Assembly: GCA_022845895.1 (NCBI GenBank)
Contig: AP025573.1
Location: 174,001 to 238,000, forward strand
DNA length: 64,000 nucleotides
DNA from: Lachnospiraceae bacterium
GTDB taxonomy: Bacteria > Bacillota > Clostridia > Lachnospirales > Lachnospiraceae
Direction: 5' to 3'
Shown: in pieces, positions 37,246-61,356 of the stretch
Numbering within the stretch: position 1 is the stretch's first letter
How the letters are laid out: each line of letters begins with the position of its first letter
Notes under the pieces: model-generated
The model's input: only the letters and a program-made list of their open reading frames with translations
The model's database searches: none
Told to the model about the DNA's origin: nothing
Program-made: the position numbers and the translations under genes

Positions 37246-37260
37246 CCATACCAGCAATAG

Positions 37261-37318
37261 AAAGCAAGAGGCAGGCAGACGACAATCGTCTGCCTGCCTC
37301 TTGCTTTCTGTTTTTTTT
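37261..37318 (+). terminator. Strong terminator after the IclR gene
   Basis: AGCAAGAGGCAGGCAGACGA pairs perfectly over 20 bp with its complement around loop CAA, followed by TTCTG and eight T. It separates the regulator transcript from the operon downstream. Confidence 0.95.
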
Positions 37319-56060: not shown

Positions 56061-56762
56061 ATGAATAAGAGCGAACTAGATAAAATGATGGCTGAAAATC
56101 CATTTCTAGTATTAAGTGATGTGATATACCAGTCGCTGTATAACGATATAATTCAGCTAAGGATGTCCCCGGATTCCCGATTGAACGAGAGCAAGATAGC
56201 GGAAGAGCTTGGAATCAGCCGGAGCCCTGTTAAGAGTGCGCTGTCAAGGCTGGAAAAAGACGGCCTCGTATATAAGAAGAGCGGCAAGATGCTGGCAGTG
56301 TCATGGATGACCAAGGAGGATGGCTATAATCTATACGAGGCCCGAAGCGCGCTGGAAGGATTCGCCGCCTCGCTCGCCGTTATCAGGATTACCTCAAAGC
56401 AGATGGAAGAGCTGGAGTGCCTGACAAAGCAGTACATAGCGGTATGCAATGGCAATACAAAGGACCTGAACGCGAACGATTATGCGGAGATTGACCACAA
56501 GTTCCACTCACTTATCGTCACAGCATCCTGCAACCCATATATCCTGCGTATGTATAAGAGCCTGGAAGGGTATCTTCTGCACTACAGGTACTGCCTGTAT
56601 TATTCGCTCGGCCCGGAGAAGCTCCAGCGGATCTTGTACCATGCAGGCAAGCGGCATCAGGCTATCTTCAATGCATTTAAAATGGGGTTTACCGATATCG
56701 TCAGACATGAAGTAGAAGAAGATGTCCACAGCATGCTCAATGCCTTCAACCAGTGGGAATGA
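56061..56762 (+). CDS. GntR family regulator, FCD (FadR) subfamily
   Basis: The 233-residue protein has a GntR winged helix (YQSLYNDIIQLRMSPDSRLNESKIAEELGISRSPVKSALSRLEKDGLV, residues ~20-70) and an FCD effector domain: YEARSALEGFAASLA, DHKFHSLIVTASCNPYI and HQAIFNAFKMGFTDIVRHEVEEDVHSM, with the His/Asp pattern used for metal or organic-acid binding. It is divergent from the carrier-ortAB operon and is its probable regulator. AAGGGAGGAAGC precedes the ATG. Confidence 0.92.
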   Translation: MNKSELDKMMAENPFLVLSDVIYQSLYNDIIQLRMSPDSRLNESKIAEELGISRSPVKSALSRLEKDGLVYKKSGKMLAVSWMTKEDGYNLYEARSALEGFAASLAVIRITSKQMEELECLTKQYIAVCNGNTKDLNANDYAEIDHKFHSLIVTASCNPYILRMYKSLEGYLLHYRYCLYYSLGPEKLQRILYHAGKRHQAIFNAFKMGFTDIVRHEVEEDVHSMLNAFNQWE

Positions 56763-56824
56763 AAGACGGTGCGTTTGTTGACAGGAAGTTGTGCGTGAAA
56801 TATAATAAATATGAAAGAATTTTG

Positions 56825-56867
56825 AAAGGGGTCAGACCCCTATATGCGGGAGGGGTCTGACCCCTTT
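56825..56867. repeat. 17-bp perfect inverted repeat with nested GGGGTC/GACCCC palindromes
   Basis: Each arm (AAAGGGGTCAGACCCCT at 56825-56841 and its complement at 56851-56867) is itself an interrupted palindrome GGGGTC-N-GACCCC. The loop is nine bases. This resembles REP/BIME-like units found in many bacterial genomes. It sits between the FCD-GntR gene and a broken MATE gene and provides the first codons of the broken frame. Confidence 0.85.
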
Positions 56868-57122
56868 GCAAATTTCTTGAATTATCTGACAAAAGACAGA
56901 GTATTTTACGGAAATTTCTTCTCCATTTTTATAGCACTTGTATTACAGAATATTATTACCTTAAGCGTGAACCTGGCGGACAATATCGTGCTGGGGGCCT
57001 ACTTCCCCCGCGGTGGTCATGTGCTGCCTCAATGCGGATCGGATATTCAAATGTGTTCCTGCCTGCCTGAAGTCTCATTACGGGAACTGGGTGAAGAAGC
57101 TGACAAGAGACTGACGAGGTGA
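56868..57122 (+). pseudogene. Remnant of a MATE efflux transporter joined to an unidentified 3' fragment
   Basis: From about 56880 the frame reads LTKDRVFYGNFFSIFIALVLQNIITLSVNLADNIVLGAY, the first helix of a MATE-family drug/sodium antiporter. After Y at about 57003 the similarity ends and ~40 residues follow (PRGGHVLPQCGSDI..., LPEVSLRELGEEADKRLTR) that I do not recognise. A complete MATE protein has ~450 residues. The start region has been replaced by the hairpin repeat at 56825-56867, so both ends of the gene are lost. The terminal fragment may be the tail of another gene once upstream of the metallopeptidase. Confidence 0.75.
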
Positions 57123-57126
57123 GAAG

Positions 57127-57672
57127 ATGAACTATCGGATAAATGATATTCCTGTGGCAATAGAATACCGCAATGTGAAAAACATCAACCTCTATATAAA
57201 GCCGCCTGACGGCCGGATTCTTGTCACGGCTCCAAGACGGGTGCCGAAGAAAAGGATTATGGAATTTGTCGAATCAAAAGCCGGGTGGATAGAGCAGACA
57301 CGCCGCCGGATGTTGAATGCACGGGAAAGGCAGATGGGCGATAGGCTGACCGTGGTGACGAAGGGGCAGCTTGAGGCGATGCGAAGCAATGTGGAAAAAT
57401 ATGTGGATAGATGGGAACCGGTGATGGGCGTACATGCGTCTGCCTGGACGCTGAGAGATATGAAGACAAGATGGGGAAGCTGCAGCGTGGACAGTGGACG
57501 TATCCGCCTGAACAAGCGCCTTGCGCTCTATCCCGAAGACTGCCTGGAATACGTGATAGTACATGAACTGTGCCATCTGCTCGAGCCAAGCCATAACCAA
57601 CGGTTCAAAATGCTTATGGGCCGTTTCATGCCAGATTGGAAAGAACGGAAAAAACGTCTGGGGACAGGTTAA
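57127..57672 (+). CDS. YgjP-like (M48/DUF45) metallopeptidase family protein
   Basis: The 181-residue protein belongs to the YgjP/DUF45 zincin family: NINLYIKPPDGRILVTAPRRVPKKRIMEFVESKAGWIEQ at the start, TRWGSCSVDSGRIRLNKRLALYPEDCLEYVIVHELCHLLEPSHNQRFKMLMGRFMPDWKERKKRL at the end. HELCH with the downstream Glu-Pro-Ser-His gives a zinc site near residue 144. The final residues GTG and the TAA stop lie inside the long palindrome at 57660-57737, so the insertion has supplied the C-terminus. Family function is unproven. The start is four bases after the preceding fragment's stop. Confidence 0.88.
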   Translation: MNYRINDIPVAIEYRNVKNINLYIKPPDGRILVTAPRRVPKKRIMEFVESKAGWIEQTRRRMLNARERQMGDRLTVVTKGQLEAMRSNVEKYVDRWEPVMGVHASAWTLRDMKTRWGSCSVDSGRIRLNKRLALYPEDCLEYVIVHELCHLLEPSHNQRFKMLMGRFMPDWKERKKRLGTG

Positions 57673-57737
57673 AACGCGGATGGGGACGGGGGAAATCTAG
57701 ATTTCCCCCGTCCCCATCCGCGTTTTAACCTGTCCCC
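57660..57737. repeat. 78-bp perfect palindrome (copy 1) between two convergent genes
   Basis: The sequence is its own reverse complement from 57660 to 57737, with centre AAATCTAGATTT (57693-57704) and arms of 39 bases beginning GGGGACAGGTTAAAACGCGG. It contains the stop codon of the metallopeptidase gene and abuts the stop of the MFS gene at 57738. A related copy lies at 60564-60639. A transcript from either strand would fold into one long hairpin and could act as a bidirectional terminator, although no U-run follows. Confidence 0.95.
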
Positions 57738-58910
57738 CTAGATTTTGCGCTTCAGGATGAATATTCCGGTAAGAACCAGAAGCAGTCCGCTTCCAATCAT
57801 TATCCAACGGATATCCACCCAGTCTGCCATCGGGCCGAATATCAGCATACCTACCGGCATTACCGCGGCAGAAATGATCTGGAAGACAGAGAAGACTCTG
57901 CCGAGCCTCTGCTCTTCGACCTGCTCCTGCAGCATGACGGTGGAGGCGGTAGCAAGTGGCGGCATGAACGTCCCGGATAGGAATATGACGGCCAGATACA
58001 TCCAGAAATACGGGCTGACGCCCAGCAGGGCGAAGGTAATTCCGAAACCGATATAGGATACGGCGATTACGAGCCATTTGTTTTTGAAGCTGCCTTTCCA
58101 TGATACATAGACGCCTCCGGCGAGGGAACCCGCTGTCCATATAATTTCGTTGGCGGAAAGCCGCCATACTTCGCTGCCGAAGATTCGTTCAACCATCAGC
58201 GGCGACAAGAAAGCCGCAGGCGTGATAAGAAAGAAGGCAATTCCGTAATATACGAGTATGCGGGAGACGACAGGATGGCCTGTCGTGTAGGCAATGCCTT
58301 CTCTCAAGTCGTGCCACATGGACAGGACACCTTCTGCCTGGGGCTTTTGGACTTTTAGAAATGCCATGACGCAGATGGCCATGGCGGCGGTAATAACATC
58401 CGCCATCATTGCCCACACGATTCCGGCAGCCCCGAGCAGCGCGCCGCCTACAGCGGGTGAGACCATCAGGAGCAGGGAGCTGCACGTCTGATTTATCCCA
58501 TTGATTCTTGTCAGCTTCTCCGTTGGTACTATCTGGGGCAGAAGAGCACCCACGGCAGGCGTCTGGACACCGGCACCGACAGAGCGGATGGCAGAGACGA
58601 CCATCAGCATGGAGAGAGAATCATTTCCCTTAAAGAACATGATGACAAGTCCGAGGGTAGCTAAGGCGATAAAGCCGTCTGCACACATAATGAGATATTT
58701 ACGGTTATAGCGGTCCGCCCAGACACCGGCGAACAGTGAAATTAGCAGCTGCGGCAGCAGGCTGCACAGGATAGACGCTGTCATCCAGGCACCAGAGGAG
58801 GTCTCCAGCGTAATATACCAGGTTATTGCATAGCTGACGATAGAGGAGCCGAATAAACTGATATTCTGGCTCACAAGAAACAGTGTACTTTTTTTCTTCC
58901 AGTCTTTCAT
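57738..58910 (-). CDS. MFS drug exporter (Mef-like)
   Basis: The 390-residue protein has twelve hydrophobic helices and the pattern of macrolide-type MFS exporters: WKKKSTLFLVSQNISLFGSSIVSYAITWYI, LFAGVWADRYNRKYLIMCAD, RSVGAGVQTPAVGALLPQIVPTEKLTRINGINQTCSSLLLMVSPAVGGALL. The start at 58910 follows TGAGG; an upstream in-frame ATG at 58943 lies in the terminator T-run. It should export a drug or toxic metabolite with protons. A leader peptide and two or three hairpins upstream suggest antibiotic-induced attenuation. Confidence 0.88.
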   Translation of the reverse strand: MKDWKKKSTLFLVSQNISLFGSSIVSYAITWYITLETSSGAWMTASILCSLLPQLLISLFAGVWADRYNRKYLIMCADGFIALATLGLVIMFFKGNDSLSMLMVVSAIRSVGAGVQTPAVGALLPQIVPTEKLTRINGINQTCSSLLLMVSPAVGGALLGAAGIVWAMMADVITAAMAICVMAFLKVQKPQAEGVLSMWHDLREGIAYTTGHPVVSRILVYYGIAFFLITPAAFLSPLMVERIFGSEVWRLSANEIIWTAGSLAGGVYVSWKGSFKNKWLVIAVSYIGFGITFALLGVSPYFWMYLAVIFLSGTFMPPLATASTVMLQEQVEEQRLGRVFSVFQIISAAVMPVGMLIFGPMADWVDIRWIMIGSGLLLVLTGIFILKRKI

Positions 58911-58926
58911 AGTAACCTCATTTCCT

Positions 58927-58968
58927 AAAATAAAAACAGACAAATGCCCTGGAAAGGACTTTTGTCTG
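58927..58968 (-). terminator. Attenuator terminator directly before the MFS gene
   Basis: On the minus strand CAGACAAAAGTCC and GGGCATTTGTCTG form a stem around a short loop, followed by TTTTTATTTT. It ends about 17 bp before the MFS start codon, so transcription would stop here unless the hairpin is prevented. Confidence 0.75.
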
Positions 58969-58995
58969 CTGCCTGTTCAATATAAATGGGTACGT

Positions 58996-59032
58996 AAAAA
59001 CAGACTTCCCGTAACATCGTCGGGGACTCTGT
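58996..59032 (-). terminator. Second attenuator hairpin in the MFS leader
   Basis: On the minus strand ACAGAGTCCCCG (59032-59021) pairs with CGGGAAGTCTGT (59011-59000) apart from two mismatches, followed by TTTT. Its GTCTG end could instead pair with CAGAC of the next hairpin, giving an antiterminator alternative. Confidence 0.6.
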
Positions 59033-59061
59033 TCCATCTCCATTCATACAAAATAAGCATC

Positions 59062-59096
59062 AGAAAAAATCCCTTCCGGGAGCAGTATTTTTTCAA
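59062..59096 (-). promoter_or_regulatory. First leader hairpin behind the leader peptide
   Basis: On the minus strand GAAAAAAT and ATTTTTTC close a stem with an inner TCCC/GGGA pairing. It starts within about ten bases of the leader peptide stop, so a ribosome stalled on the leader would cover its left side. Confidence 0.55.
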
Positions 59097-59100
59097 TAGC

Positions 59101-59124
59101 TTATCTCAACTGAATGGAAAACAT
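59101..59124 (-). CDS. Seven-residue leader peptide (MFSIQLR) of the MFS exporter
   Basis: AGGAGGT (59137-59131) lies six bases ahead of an ATG that opens MFSIQLR followed by TAA. The ending S-I-Q-L-R recalls the S-M-R-L-R ending of macrolide-stalled leader peptides of the ermD and mef/msr leaders. A strong ribosome binding site on a seven-codon frame, followed by terminator-like hairpins and a drug exporter, fits ribosome-stalling attenuation. It is too short to be proven by sequence alone. Confidence 0.65.
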   Translation of the reverse strand: MFSIQLR

Positions 59125-59157
59125 GAACGTACCTCCTAGTATTATGAATTGTATATA

Positions 59158-59187
59158 AAAATAGCACAAAAGCAAGTGGTTTGTCAA
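59158..59187 (-). promoter_or_regulatory. Promoter of the MFS leader transcript
   Basis: On the minus strand TTGACA (59187-59182) and TATTTT (59163-59158) are 18 bp apart, about 21 bp before the leader ribosome binding site. Confidence 0.6.
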
Positions 59188-59203
59188 TACAATATTAAAG
59201 ATT

Positions 59204-59235
59204 AAAAGGACCATGAAATGATTCAAGGTCCTTTT
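59204..59235. repeat. Hairpin in the divergent MFS/PucR intergenic region
   Basis: AAAAGGACC and GGTCCTTTT pair over nine bases around a 14-base loop. It lies upstream of both promoters, so it is not a terminator of either gene; it may be a remnant or a regulator-binding site. Confidence 0.5.
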
Positions 59236-59367
59236 GCTTATATAATCTAGAGATTGGATTAGGAATTACAAAATCGGGGTCATTTAAATATTTTGTATCC
59301 TAAGTACAATATATCATGGAATATATACTTTGAATATAGTTTTGACATACATAAAAACTACAAATGA

Positions 59368-59396
59368 TTGTGCTTGAAGCACAAAAGAAGTATAAT
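59368..59396 (+). promoter_or_regulatory. Promoter and palindromic operator of the PucR-type gene
   Basis: The palindrome TTGTGCTTGAAGCACAA (59368-59384, 8-bp arms) contains a -35-like TTGTGC, and TATAAT stands 17 bp downstream (59391-59396). A regulator bound here would cover the -35, so self-control by the PucR-type protein is plausible. Confidence 0.65.
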
Positions 59397-59426
59397 TGTA
59401 TCAGCATAAGAAAAGAGGGGTCAGAT

Positions 59427-60560
59427 ATGGCAGTAGAATTGGAGGACTTGTATGCGCAAATCAAGCCGCAGTATGATATAAAGCTTCATACGAATGGATG
59501 TTTCCGGAGGATGATAGACTGGATACATATGGTAGAAGAGGTCAGCTTCGTATCCCTGCTTCACGGAGATGAGCTTGTGTTTAACTCGGGACTTCACTAT
59601 ACATCTGAAGAATGGCTCGTACAATTTATAAAAGAACTGGATAACGTGCATGCTGGCGGTCTGATTATCGCGCTGGAAGAAGGGCACATGTTTGCAAGTG
59701 AGACGGTAGATTACTGCAACAGTATACGGTTTCCGTTATTTTCCGCAACCATGACGTCACCATTTATTGATATCATGCGCATGTTTTCGGCCATCTTGCT
59801 GCGGAATGAGCAGAGAGACACCAATCTGATCGCAGCGCTTAAAAATGCAGTTTTTTACCCGGAGAATACAGAATTATACGCAAGCCATCTGGAGCGGAAC
59901 GGGTTTTTCAGAAATATGAGCTACCTCGTTGTGATGCTCAGCTGCCACGCCTACGATACAGAGAATGGAAACGAGAAGCTAGAAGAACTTCACAAGTCAT
60001 TAAACCATGAGATAAAAAGCGGAATTGTCTACGAAGAAAAAGGGCTGCTGGTAATATTGCTGGCCGGATATGAGCAGAAACGGGTTAAGGAAAAGATGCA
60101 GGCGCTCAGCCGGAAAGATCATCATATTTACATTGGAATCGGTTCCCAGGAAGAGGATATGCAGCATATATATAAATCTTACCAGAATGCATATACGGCA
60201 TATCAGCTGACAAAGACGGCAATCAACAAAAACTTCTTGGTATATGAGGAACTGGGCGTATACAAGTTACTGGCAGATGTAAAGGAAAAAGAAATATATC
60301 CGGCGTTCGTACAAGAGACGCTCGGGGCTTTGATTTCATATGACCGGGATAACAAGACAGAGTACACGGAGGTATTGAGGGCATTTTTCGAAAATGAATG
60401 CAGCATCCTGAATACTTCCAGAGCATTATACTGCCATAAGAATACACTGGCTTATAAGATAAATAAAGTAAAAAATCTGCTTGGCTATGATATACTCAGC
60501 AATGAAAACAGAACGAGGATAATGCTGGCATTCTACATTATGAAAATGCAGGAAAACTGA
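59427..60560 (+). CDS. PucR family transcriptional regulator
   Basis: The 377-residue protein starts at 59427 behind AAGAGGGG. Residues 1-120 match the PucR sensor domain (VEEVSFVSLLHGDELVFNSG, SEEWLVQFIKELDNVHAGGLIIAL). The middle (~150-290) is a degenerate cyclase-like region, and the end is a PucR-type helix-turn-helix: FFENECSILNTSRALYCHKNTLAYKINKVKNLLGYD, residues ~325-360. PucR proteins control purine or amino-acid catabolism. No purine genes are near, so the target is unknown. It is divergent from the MFS gene and followed directly by palindrome copy 2. Confidence 0.88.
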   Translation: MAVELEDLYAQIKPQYDIKLHTNGCFRRMIDWIHMVEEVSFVSLLHGDELVFNSGLHYTSEEWLVQFIKELDNVHAGGLIIALEEGHMFASETVDYCNSIRFPLFSATMTSPFIDIMRMFSAILLRNEQRDTNLIAALKNAVFYPENTELYASHLERNGFFRNMSYLVVMLSCHAYDTENGNEKLEELHKSLNHEIKSGIVYEEKGLLVILLAGYEQKRVKEKMQALSRKDHHIYIGIGSQEEDMQHIYKSYQNAYTAYQLTKTAINKNFLVYEELGVYKLLADVKEKEIYPAFVQETLGALISYDRDNKTEYTEVLRAFFENECSILNTSRALYCHKNTLAYKINKVKNLLGYDILSNENRTRIMLAFYIMKMQEN

Positions 60561-60563
60561 GGG

Positions 60564-60639
60564 GGGACAGGGGAAAGCGCGGATGGGGACGGGGGAAATC
60601 TAGATTTCCCCCGTCCCCATCCGCGCTTTCCCCTGTCCC
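60564..60639. repeat. 76-bp perfect palindrome (copy 2)
   Basis: The sequence is its own reverse complement from 60564 to 60639, with the same centre AAATCTAGATTT and the same GCGGATGGGGACGGGGG core as copy 1. Only the outer part differs (GGGGAAAGCGCGG against GGTTAAAACGCGG), and the difference is mirrored in both arms. A further direct copy of the end CCCTGTCCC stands at 60652-60660. It begins four bases after the PucR stop codon. Confidence 0.95.
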
Positions 60640-60717
60640 TTTTAGAAAATTCCCTGTCCCCAAAAAATGTGTTATAATATAGCAAGAATCGAATATAATA
60701 AAAGGGAGGGAACAAAT

Positions 60718-61356
60718 ATGGATATGAATCGTGTAAAAAGAAATAAGCTGCTGGGGGCGAGAATCATCAAGGGATTAGAATCCCGCAGCATGGAAGGCTA
60801 TTATGCACAGACGAAGGAAGAAGCCCTCGAAAAAGCGCTGGAGCTGATACCGGAAGGGAGCTCTGTCGGATGGGGCGGCTCCATGTCTATCAAGGAGATT
60901 GGGCTGAAGGATGCAGTCTGTACAGGTGATTATAAGGTGTTCAACCGTGACGTCTGTAAGACTCCCGAGGAAAAACGCCAGGTTGAGCTTGCTACATACG
61001 ATTGTGATTACTTCATCACAAGTGCCAACGCCATTACAGAAGACGGTGTGATGGTAAACATAGACGGTAATGCCAACAGAGTATCCGCTATTGCATACGG
61101 ACCAAAGAACGTAGTAATGATTGTCGGTATGAATAAGGCGGTAAAGAGCGTGGACGATGCAATGTCACGTGCCAGAAATGAGGCGGCCCCAATCAATGCA
61201 GAGAGGTTTAACCTCGATACGCCATGCTGCAAGAACGGTATGTGCTTTGACTGCAAGTCGCCGGATACGATTTGCTGCCAGATTTTGATTACCAGATTTT
61301 CAAAGACACCAAATCGGATTAAGGTCATACTTGTAAATGAAGAATTAGGGTTTTAA
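60718..61356 (+). CDS. LUD domain protein (LutC/YkgG-like)
   Basis: The 212-residue protein has the LUD pattern: YYAQTKEEALEKALELIPEGSSVGWGGSMSIKEIGL near residues 28-65, DYFITSANAITEDGVMVNIDGNANRVSAIAYGPKNVVMIVGMNKAV near 100-145, and a cysteine-rich end (CCKNGMCFDCKSPDTICC). LutC-type proteins take part in lactate oxidation, but single LUD proteins of this type are common in clostridia without a known reaction. The cysteines may hold a metal or an Fe-S cluster. AAAGGGAGGG precedes the ATG; TATAAT at 60673-60678 lies upstream, with a poor -35 in the repeat flank. Confidence 0.88.
   Translation: MDMNRVKRNKLLGARIIKGLESRSMEGYYAQTKEEALEKALELIPEGSSVGWGGSMSIKEIGLKDAVCTGDYKVFNRDVCKTPEEKRQVELATYDCDYFITSANAITEDGVMVNIDGNANRVSAIAYGPKNVVMIVGMNKAVKSVDDAMSRARNEAAPINAERFNLDTPCCKNGMCFDCKSPDTICCQILITRFSKTPNRIKVILVNEELGF

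Follow-up and report, generated by a model that had tools for sequence, protein, structure and literature searches.

A transposase-linked family of long palindromes in a Lachnospiraceae genus, with arms that change in concert at orthologous sites

The stretch of Lachnospiraceae DNA analysed here (the window; 64,000 nucleotides, positions 174,001 to 238,000 of contig AP025573.1) carries two long perfect palindromes, which together with the genes between them span 57660-60639. Palindrome 1 (57660-57737) measures 78 bp with an arm of 39, and palindrome 2 (60564-60639) measures 76 bp with an arm of 38. Both follow one plan: an outer box, GGGGACAGG, a 13-nt site-specific spacer, an inner box, GGGGACGG, and a centre, AAATCTAGATTT, beyond which the series returns mirrored. 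The centre and the core, GCGGATGGGGACGGGGG, are common to the two, and where they differ (GGTTAAAAC vs GGGGAAAGC) the difference is mirrored across both arms. An extra 22-nt unit starting GGGGACAGGG (60640-60661, minus strand; box at 60654-60661) adds an unpaired third rung on the right side of palindrome 2 only. No perfect even palindrome in the window is longer than the 78-bp copy, compared with maxima of 12-18 bp in 20 first-order Markov simulations of 64 kb. The folding energies of the two copies as single-stranded DNA are -50.9 and -51.7 kcal/mol (z about -16; two extra bases were included for copy 1).

Both palindromes lie at gene ends. The last codons and the TAA (57670-57672) of a YgjP-like metallopeptidase gene (57127-57672, plus strand) lie in the left arm of palindrome 1, which is abutted by the stop codon (57738-57740) of a major facilitator superfamily (MFS) transporter gene (57738-58943, minus strand). 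A PucR-type regulator gene (59364-60560, plus strand) ends with a TGA at 60558-60560, and palindrome 2 begins after a 3-nt gap; a LUD-domain protein gene is also among the neighbours. The first-pass annotation had described the palindromes, their shared centre and core, their mirrored differences and these gene-end contacts, and all of this stands. It had also read the pair as a mobile or amplified element that targets gene ends, and the symmetry as the product of either selection for the hairpin or arm-templated correction; these two proposals fare less evenly.

The pair belongs to a dispersed family. The 32-nt core, with up to two mismatches, is found in 69 places in the genome that holds the window (G000; 4,158,096 bases, one contig) and in 65, 63 and 56 places in three congeners (G001, G002 and G003), where a reversed-pattern control gives 2-3 matches per genome; the first-pass concern that only two copies might exist is thereby removed. 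From 122 stretches around listed copies we catalogued 221 cores; 216 of them have up to 2 mismatches, out of 253 such cores counted in the four genomes. The five entries with 3 mismatches are excluded from the position, centre-inversion, shuffle, persistence and foot-tetranucleotide counts. Four of these resemble chance matches; the fifth is a true copy, window site 1 in G003 (L085), which has a 1-nt indel in one arm and is retained in the arm comparison, the gap-aware change counts and the presence/absence counts.

The copies are built as ladders. Outward of the inner GGGGACGG box, 272 arms have a second GGGAC box 21 or 22 nt away and 65 arms have a third one 42 or 43 nt away, a spacing of about two helical turns; the longest palindromes reach 90 bp (arm 45). 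The second box is present in both arms of 80 of the 221 copies, in one arm of 112 and in neither arm of 29. Among the 80, the arm spacers are identical in 55, differ by 1 to 8 bases in 16 and are unequally spaced in 9, while a control that pairs left and right arms of different copies from the same genome yields no pair with 0 mismatches. Most two-box copies therefore hold private sequence, written twice. The 25 copies of the 80 with asymmetric arms, a feature that the first-pass annotation had counted against its proposal, are in our judgement informative and not fatal. We read the palindromes as non-autonomous repeats of the terminal inverted repeat/repetitive extragenic palindrome (TIR/REP) type, made of GGGGAC boxes 21-22 nt apart, in which two box arrays meet in opposite orientation, which lets either strand fold as one long hairpin.

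With genes taken from simple calls of open reading frames (ORFs) of 90 codons or more, 56 copies of G000 fall 14 between convergent, 34 between tandem and 2 between divergent genes, with 6 within an ORF; for comparison, these stretches contain 25 convergent, 103 tandem and 21 divergent gaps of 40 bp or more. Over the four genomes, 28 of 216 copies lie inside an ORF call, and a stop is the nearest gene end for 134 of the remaining 188, the median core distance being 26 bp to a stop and 73 bp to a start. The copies are thus located mostly downstream of genes, and the apparent targeting of gene ends could also mean that harmless insertions survive there. Ordinary bidirectional terminators between genes, similar to one another by chance, would also be expected after stops and between convergent genes, and we regard this account as highly improbable: no terminator-like site was called at either palindrome in a scan that allowed loops of 3-8 bases and counted at most 20 pairs, no Rfam family matched in 56500-61000, and the copies are box-built, number 56-69 per genome, are linked to a transposase and co-occur with its homologues.

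In G001, G002 and G003 a copy stands at the same place as each of the window copies. The first-pass annotation had looked to relatives lacking the window insertions, and among these four species there are none; the window insertions are therefore old and common to the genus, not a pair of recent events. This occupancy also rules out a recent duplication of one window copy into the other site. Counts for the whole catalogue come with the reservations that stretches were selected around copies, which biases toward presence, and that the presence test is loose: of 59 G000 entries, 39, 41 and 43 are present in G001, G002 and G003, 2 are absent from each, and 18, 16 and 14 are without synteny in the compared DNA. 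Among 18 rows flagged absent, 4 come from chance matches, and 9 go back to a single degenerate hairpin that all four genomes have. Another 3 concern the L106 site of G000, which is shared by G002 and G003 and looks empty in G001; one (a G002 site, L160 11842) reflects a longer stretch missing in G000, and the last is the G002 site L200 3706. After this check, the L106 site in G001 is the one absence of a G000 entry that stands.

The degenerate hairpin, AGGACGGTG...CACCGTCCT (GGGACGG...CCGTCCC in G001), occupies one orthologous site in the four genomes (L124 about 789-820 in G000, L155 1053-1084 in G001, L160 13216-13247 in G002 and L195 12820-12851 in G003). Its boxes have drifted and miss the search expression, and its GGGAC/AGGAC difference is likewise mirrored.

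At orthologous sites with boxes in both arms, we compared the four arms column by column without requiring symmetric spacers; both flanks matched in 77 of 79 ortholog pairs. The arms change in concert. Among 422 stem positions compared between G000 and G001, both arms differ at 38, of which 36 are mirrored, and a single arm differs at 9; gap-aware counts of mirrored to one-arm changes are 39:14 for this pair, 35:8 for G001-G002 and 19:13 for G001-G003, the distant comparisons. A shuffle test, in which right arms of equal-length pairs were exchanged among sites at the same position (2000 shuffles per genome pair), places the mirrored count above every shuffle in all six genome pairs: 36 for G000-G001 (shuffle mean 7.2, maximum 15), 35 for G001-G002 (6.2, 13), 14 for G001-G003 (3.4, 9), 13 for G000-G002 (1.1, 6), 12 for G000-G003 (2.0, 7) and 8 for G002-G003 (1.5, 7). 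Pairs with unequal arms were left out of this test, namely 3 of 20 for G000-G002, 1 of 12 for G000-G003, 2 of 15 for G000-G001, 2 of 11 for G002-G003, 0 of 13 for G001-G002 and 1 of 8 for G001-G003. An alternative caller that requires symmetry, superseded by the counts from the core-pattern catalogue, gave more mirrored than one-arm changes in all six pairs in its short-arm mode (62:9 for G000-G001, 12:4 for G000-G002); its long-arm mode, which is not gap-aware and overruns the shorter arm, reported one-arm changes as the larger class in the six pairs (one-arm to mirrored 93:65 and 43:13 for the same two).

Two causes of this concert were named at the outset, and arm-templated correction fits the pattern better than selection for the hairpin does. 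Under selection, the hairpin would be kept paired as a stabiliser of mRNA 3' ends or as a DNA structure used by the host, and one-arm mutations would be removed or compensated. The placement of copies close behind stops and the very stable fold are what this account expects, and Bertels and Rainey call compensatory changes in REPINs common, in the accessible part of their paper (PMC3116915). The kinds and rates of change point the other way. A single G-U step yields transitions only, so the transversions, which make up a third to three fifths of the mirrored stem changes, favour copying: they number 19 of 39 in G000-G001, 15 of 35 in G001-G002, 6 of 19 in G001-G003, 5 of 13 in G000-G002, 9 of 15 in G000-G003 and 6 of 12 in G002-G003, and for comparison 1312 of 3367 changes in the G000-G001 flanks. 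The mirrored spacer rate lies close to the flank divergence in G000-G001 (0.148 vs 0.167) and G001-G002 (0.143 vs 0.163), which favours copying over selection, since two-step compensation should be slower. A single mismatch in a 39-bp stem should hardly matter to a selected hairpin, and in 15 of 79 ortholog pairs both species retain mismatched arms, as do all four genomes at one site, so pairing as such is not strictly required. We consider selection unlikely as the cause, and arm-templated copying, as far as sequence comparison can tell, appears to be the best-supported one.

The distribution of changes along the arm is consistent with copying as well. Summed over the six comparisons, the mirrored to one-arm ratio is 28:54 in the outer positions (0-12), 81:17 at positions 13-22 and 24:15 beside the centre, a gradient that would follow if copying starts at the folded inner part and the loop is not templated. 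Exactly inverted centres add modest support; they occur at 5 sites and make up 9 of the 158 informative ortholog pairs.

Several observations weigh against copying or blunt the case for it. One-arm changes exceed mirrored ones in the closer pairs (mirrored to one-arm 13:17 in G000-G002, 15:20 in G000-G003 and 12:14 in G002-G003), which is what two-step compensation predicts and what a lag in correction predicts alike. The mirrored spacer rate falls below the flank divergence in G001-G003 (0.082 vs 0.162) and in the closer pairs (0.040-0.045 vs 0.062-0.090), and coding as well as non-coding DNA enters the flank divergence. The six comparisons have branches in common, are non-independent and count events repeatedly. 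Weaker selection on the outer end would give a similar gradient along the arm; the centre inversions are modestly above a control (102 of 5782) that is not exactly matched; and replacement of a copy by another dispersed copy would yield mirrored changes too.

This last point is the core of a further account, in which gene conversion or re-insertion swaps whole palindromes or their inner parts between dispersed copies, and the two arms change together without any arm-to-arm copying. The window itself offers an example. Site 1 is identical in G000 and G002, and at site 2 three mirrored columns of G000 differ from G001, G002 and G003, and each has the state of site 1. The inner part probably passed by exchange from site 1 to site 2, 2.9 kb apart, in the G000 lineage, which would account for the one core and mirrored differences of the first-pass annotation: the older outer differences, in arms that are site-specific, stayed. 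Centre blocks (AAATTT, AAATCT and TTTTTT) also recur across many copies. As the general cause of the concert, exchange strikes us as doubtful though worth keeping in view, for the spacers are private to each catalogued copy, no identical arms occur between copies of the same genome, and several mirrored changes are isolated bases in an otherwise unchanged private spacer. We expect that exchange acts beside arm-templated copying and adds shared blocks, the common core of the window copies probably being one case.

Core variants GGGGACGTGTTC and GGGGACGTGTAC occur in two members of the taxonomic family, G135 and G147, and at G001:C1:187894-187927 and 207514-207547. In G147 and G001 they also appear joined to GGGGACGGAG or GGGGACGGGG arms, which suggests that half cores pass between copies as modules.

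The first-pass annotation had called for a search for a Y1 transposase gene, and this proved fruitful. The G000 genome has four Y1_Tnp genes, of which one (G000:C1:135253-136017) is flanked by imperfect palindromes of the GGGGAC family. The box upstream is CTGTCCCC and the downstream copy is TGGGACAG in G000 and GGGGACAG in L034; the gene thus has inverted repeats with GGGGWSAS on both sides, and these repeats belong to the dispersed family. The orthologous genes of Extibacter muris and Dorea sp. D27 (loci L033 and L034), whose proteins are 96 and 95 percent identical to it, are preceded by boxes and followed by a palindrome, and from this identity the genus is taken to be that of these two. 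The protein scores 48.4 bits against Pfam Y1_Tnp (cut-off 23) and 68.6 bits (E 5.2e-19) against NCBIfam NF047646 (REP_Tyr_transpos), below the cut-off of 80. Its structural model (mean pLDDT 86.6) best matches TnpA-REP 4er8, which we take to be the E. coli protein, with Z 16.2, a root-mean-square deviation of 2.7 and 155 aligned residues, and Foldseek gives E 1.1e-6 for the same entry. A phmmer search of PDB sequences with the single protein returned no match; a profile search of the PDB placed 4er8 first, at E 8e-4, with ferritins and other entries next from E 0.016 upward. The C-terminal part of the model is helical (helices between 187 and 252) and is little covered by the 4er8 alignment, and no Pfam helix-turn-helix family matched the protein.

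Other Y1 genes were considered for the GGGGAC family and set aside. The gene at 664444 has the top Y1_Tnp score and a short frame, which led to an IS200-like reading. The RAYT gene at G000:C1:1961737-1962324 is flanked by another repeat, family B (GGGGTCAGACCCC), and the 3.3-kb locus around the RAYT-like gene at G000:C1:725630-726361 (L032) lacks all searched boxes. G000 thus holds two RAYT-type genes with a separate motif for each. Family B is represented in the window at 56818-56874 (GGGGTCAGACCCCT ... AGGGGTCTGACCCC); its dimers (GGGGTCAGACCCCT-N8-AGGGGTCTGACCCC) number 32, 27, 15 and 28 in G000-G003, and locus L030 has copies at 1088-1124, 1958-1995 and 2942-2978. The window also contains, at 37256-37312, an inverted repeat with 27-nt arms, 96 percent complementary and 3 nt apart, which by sequence belongs to neither palindrome family.

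Co-occurrence was examined in 150 genomes of the taxonomic family, an even sample of a larger group. A homologue of the linked transposase at E<=1e-20, a threshold that admits paralogue-level relatives (the paralogues in G000 itself, at 38-39 percent, pass), is present in 31 of the 150. Two or more GGGGAC(N22)GTCCCC sites occur in 8 genomes, all 8 among the 31 (P=1.5e-6), and with the own genus left out, 6 of 6 multi-site genomes have a homologue (P=3.6e-5); the two-copy cut was chosen after the counts were known, and the sampled genomes are related. A single site occurs in five further genomes, two of them (G039 and G041) with a homologue, and 23 genomes have a homologue and at most one site. 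One homologue (G135) is interrupted by a stop. Of 40 loci with relatives of the TIRYT gene, 14 were inspected, L033 and L034 among them. In the other 12, which represent relatives outside the genus, the stretch between 500 bases ahead of the match and 1000 behind it holds no searched box at 10 loci and one box each at L037 and L038.

Taken together, linkage, co-occurrence and the many identical cores among the matches listed for G106 show mobility only indirectly. These cores (GGGGACAGTCCCTTTTGCAAAAGGGACTGTCCCC; for example C1:183298-183331 of G106, a member of the taxonomic family) look like a recent amplification, so that G106 may be the better place to seek mobility. Neither linkage nor co-occurrence amounts to proof that the repeats are a substrate of the transposase, and no clean transposition was seen, the empty-looking L106 site in G001 being one that a deletion may have produced. 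The proposal of a mobile or amplified element at gene ends thus holds in so far as the family is multi-copy, transposase-linked and mostly downstream of genes, and not in so far as the window copies would be a recent insertion pair.

The reading that we favour, and think likely as a whole, combines these strands. The family most likely arose through the action of the linked HUH/Y1 transposase, of TIRYT type. This enzyme would be expected to recognise single-stranded DNA hairpins of the GGGGAC type, much as TnpA-REP recognises its REPs. Symmetry would then be kept because one arm is copied from the other when the element folds during replication, by template switching or hairpin-primed repair, so that a mutation in a single arm would be either erased or written into the opposite arm, with exchange between copies in addition. 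A bolder version, to which we give little credence, has the element's own HUH nuclease nick folded copies at the GGGGAC rungs, after which the free 3' end would copy the opposite arm. The transposase would in that case serve as a palindrome-maintenance enzyme long after most insertions ceased moving, and the 21-22 nt ladder would provide landing sites on one face of the helix.

The question of gene conversion in such repeats was reportedly asked in the title of a 1988 paper by Higgins. Among known systems, the closest is that of the TIRYT transposases (TIRtrons, subclass 2.1). In the accessible parts of the two principal sources, these have the motif GGGGWSAS (Di Nocera et al. 2013, PMC3733652; Quentin et al. 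2018, PMC6006769) and a C-terminal helix-turn-helix domain (PMC6006769), and their repeats form dispersed families, many as dimers or clusters and some self-complementary (PMC3733652, PMC6006769); the accessible part of PMC3686654 has nothing on TIRYT. The likeness lies in a Y1 HUH gene flanked by inverted repeats with GGGGACAG, which fits GGGGWSAS. Compared with what those parts describe, the present family differs in its host, a Lachnospiraceae genus, in its 21-22 nt GGGGAC ladders and palindromes of up to 90 bp, and in site-private spacers mirrored in both arms. The term GGGGAC itself did not occur in the literature among the matches listed.

REPINs and their RAYT genes share with this family two inverted units that fold into one hairpin, a link to a transposase gene and reported compensatory changes (PMC3116915, as far as its accessible part goes). 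The differences are that the GTAG foot is absent here, that the inner box forms no small hairpin by itself and that the transposase scores 68.6 against REP_Tyr_transpos, under the cut-off of 80. Neither GTAG nor CTAC was found within about 10 nt of either window palindrome, and across copies with outer boxes in both arms these tetranucleotides stand beside 7 of 158 feet.

Template switching at quasipalindromes, in the accessible parts of PMC7202029, PMC8604942 and PMC8794818, homogenises the arms of inverted repeats and can invert the centre, and the mirrored changes and centre inversions described above form a pattern like it. There it is known from E. coli assays, yeast genes and the stems of RNA genes, whereas here it would act on a repeat family at orthologous sites. 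Among the matches listed, no paper joined REP or REPIN repeats with template-switch homogenisation, and the accessible part of PMC3116915 reads paired changes in REP-type hairpins as compensation under selection. With dozens of orthologous copies in four species and mostly private arms, selection and arm copying can be compared, and the numbers lean to copying. If this is true, paired stem changes alone are no proof of a selected RNA structure, contrary to the usual reading of covariation. Set beside these systems, the window palindromes belong to a TIR/REP-type repeat family of a known kind, with a probable transposase, a box-ladder build and arms that change in concert.

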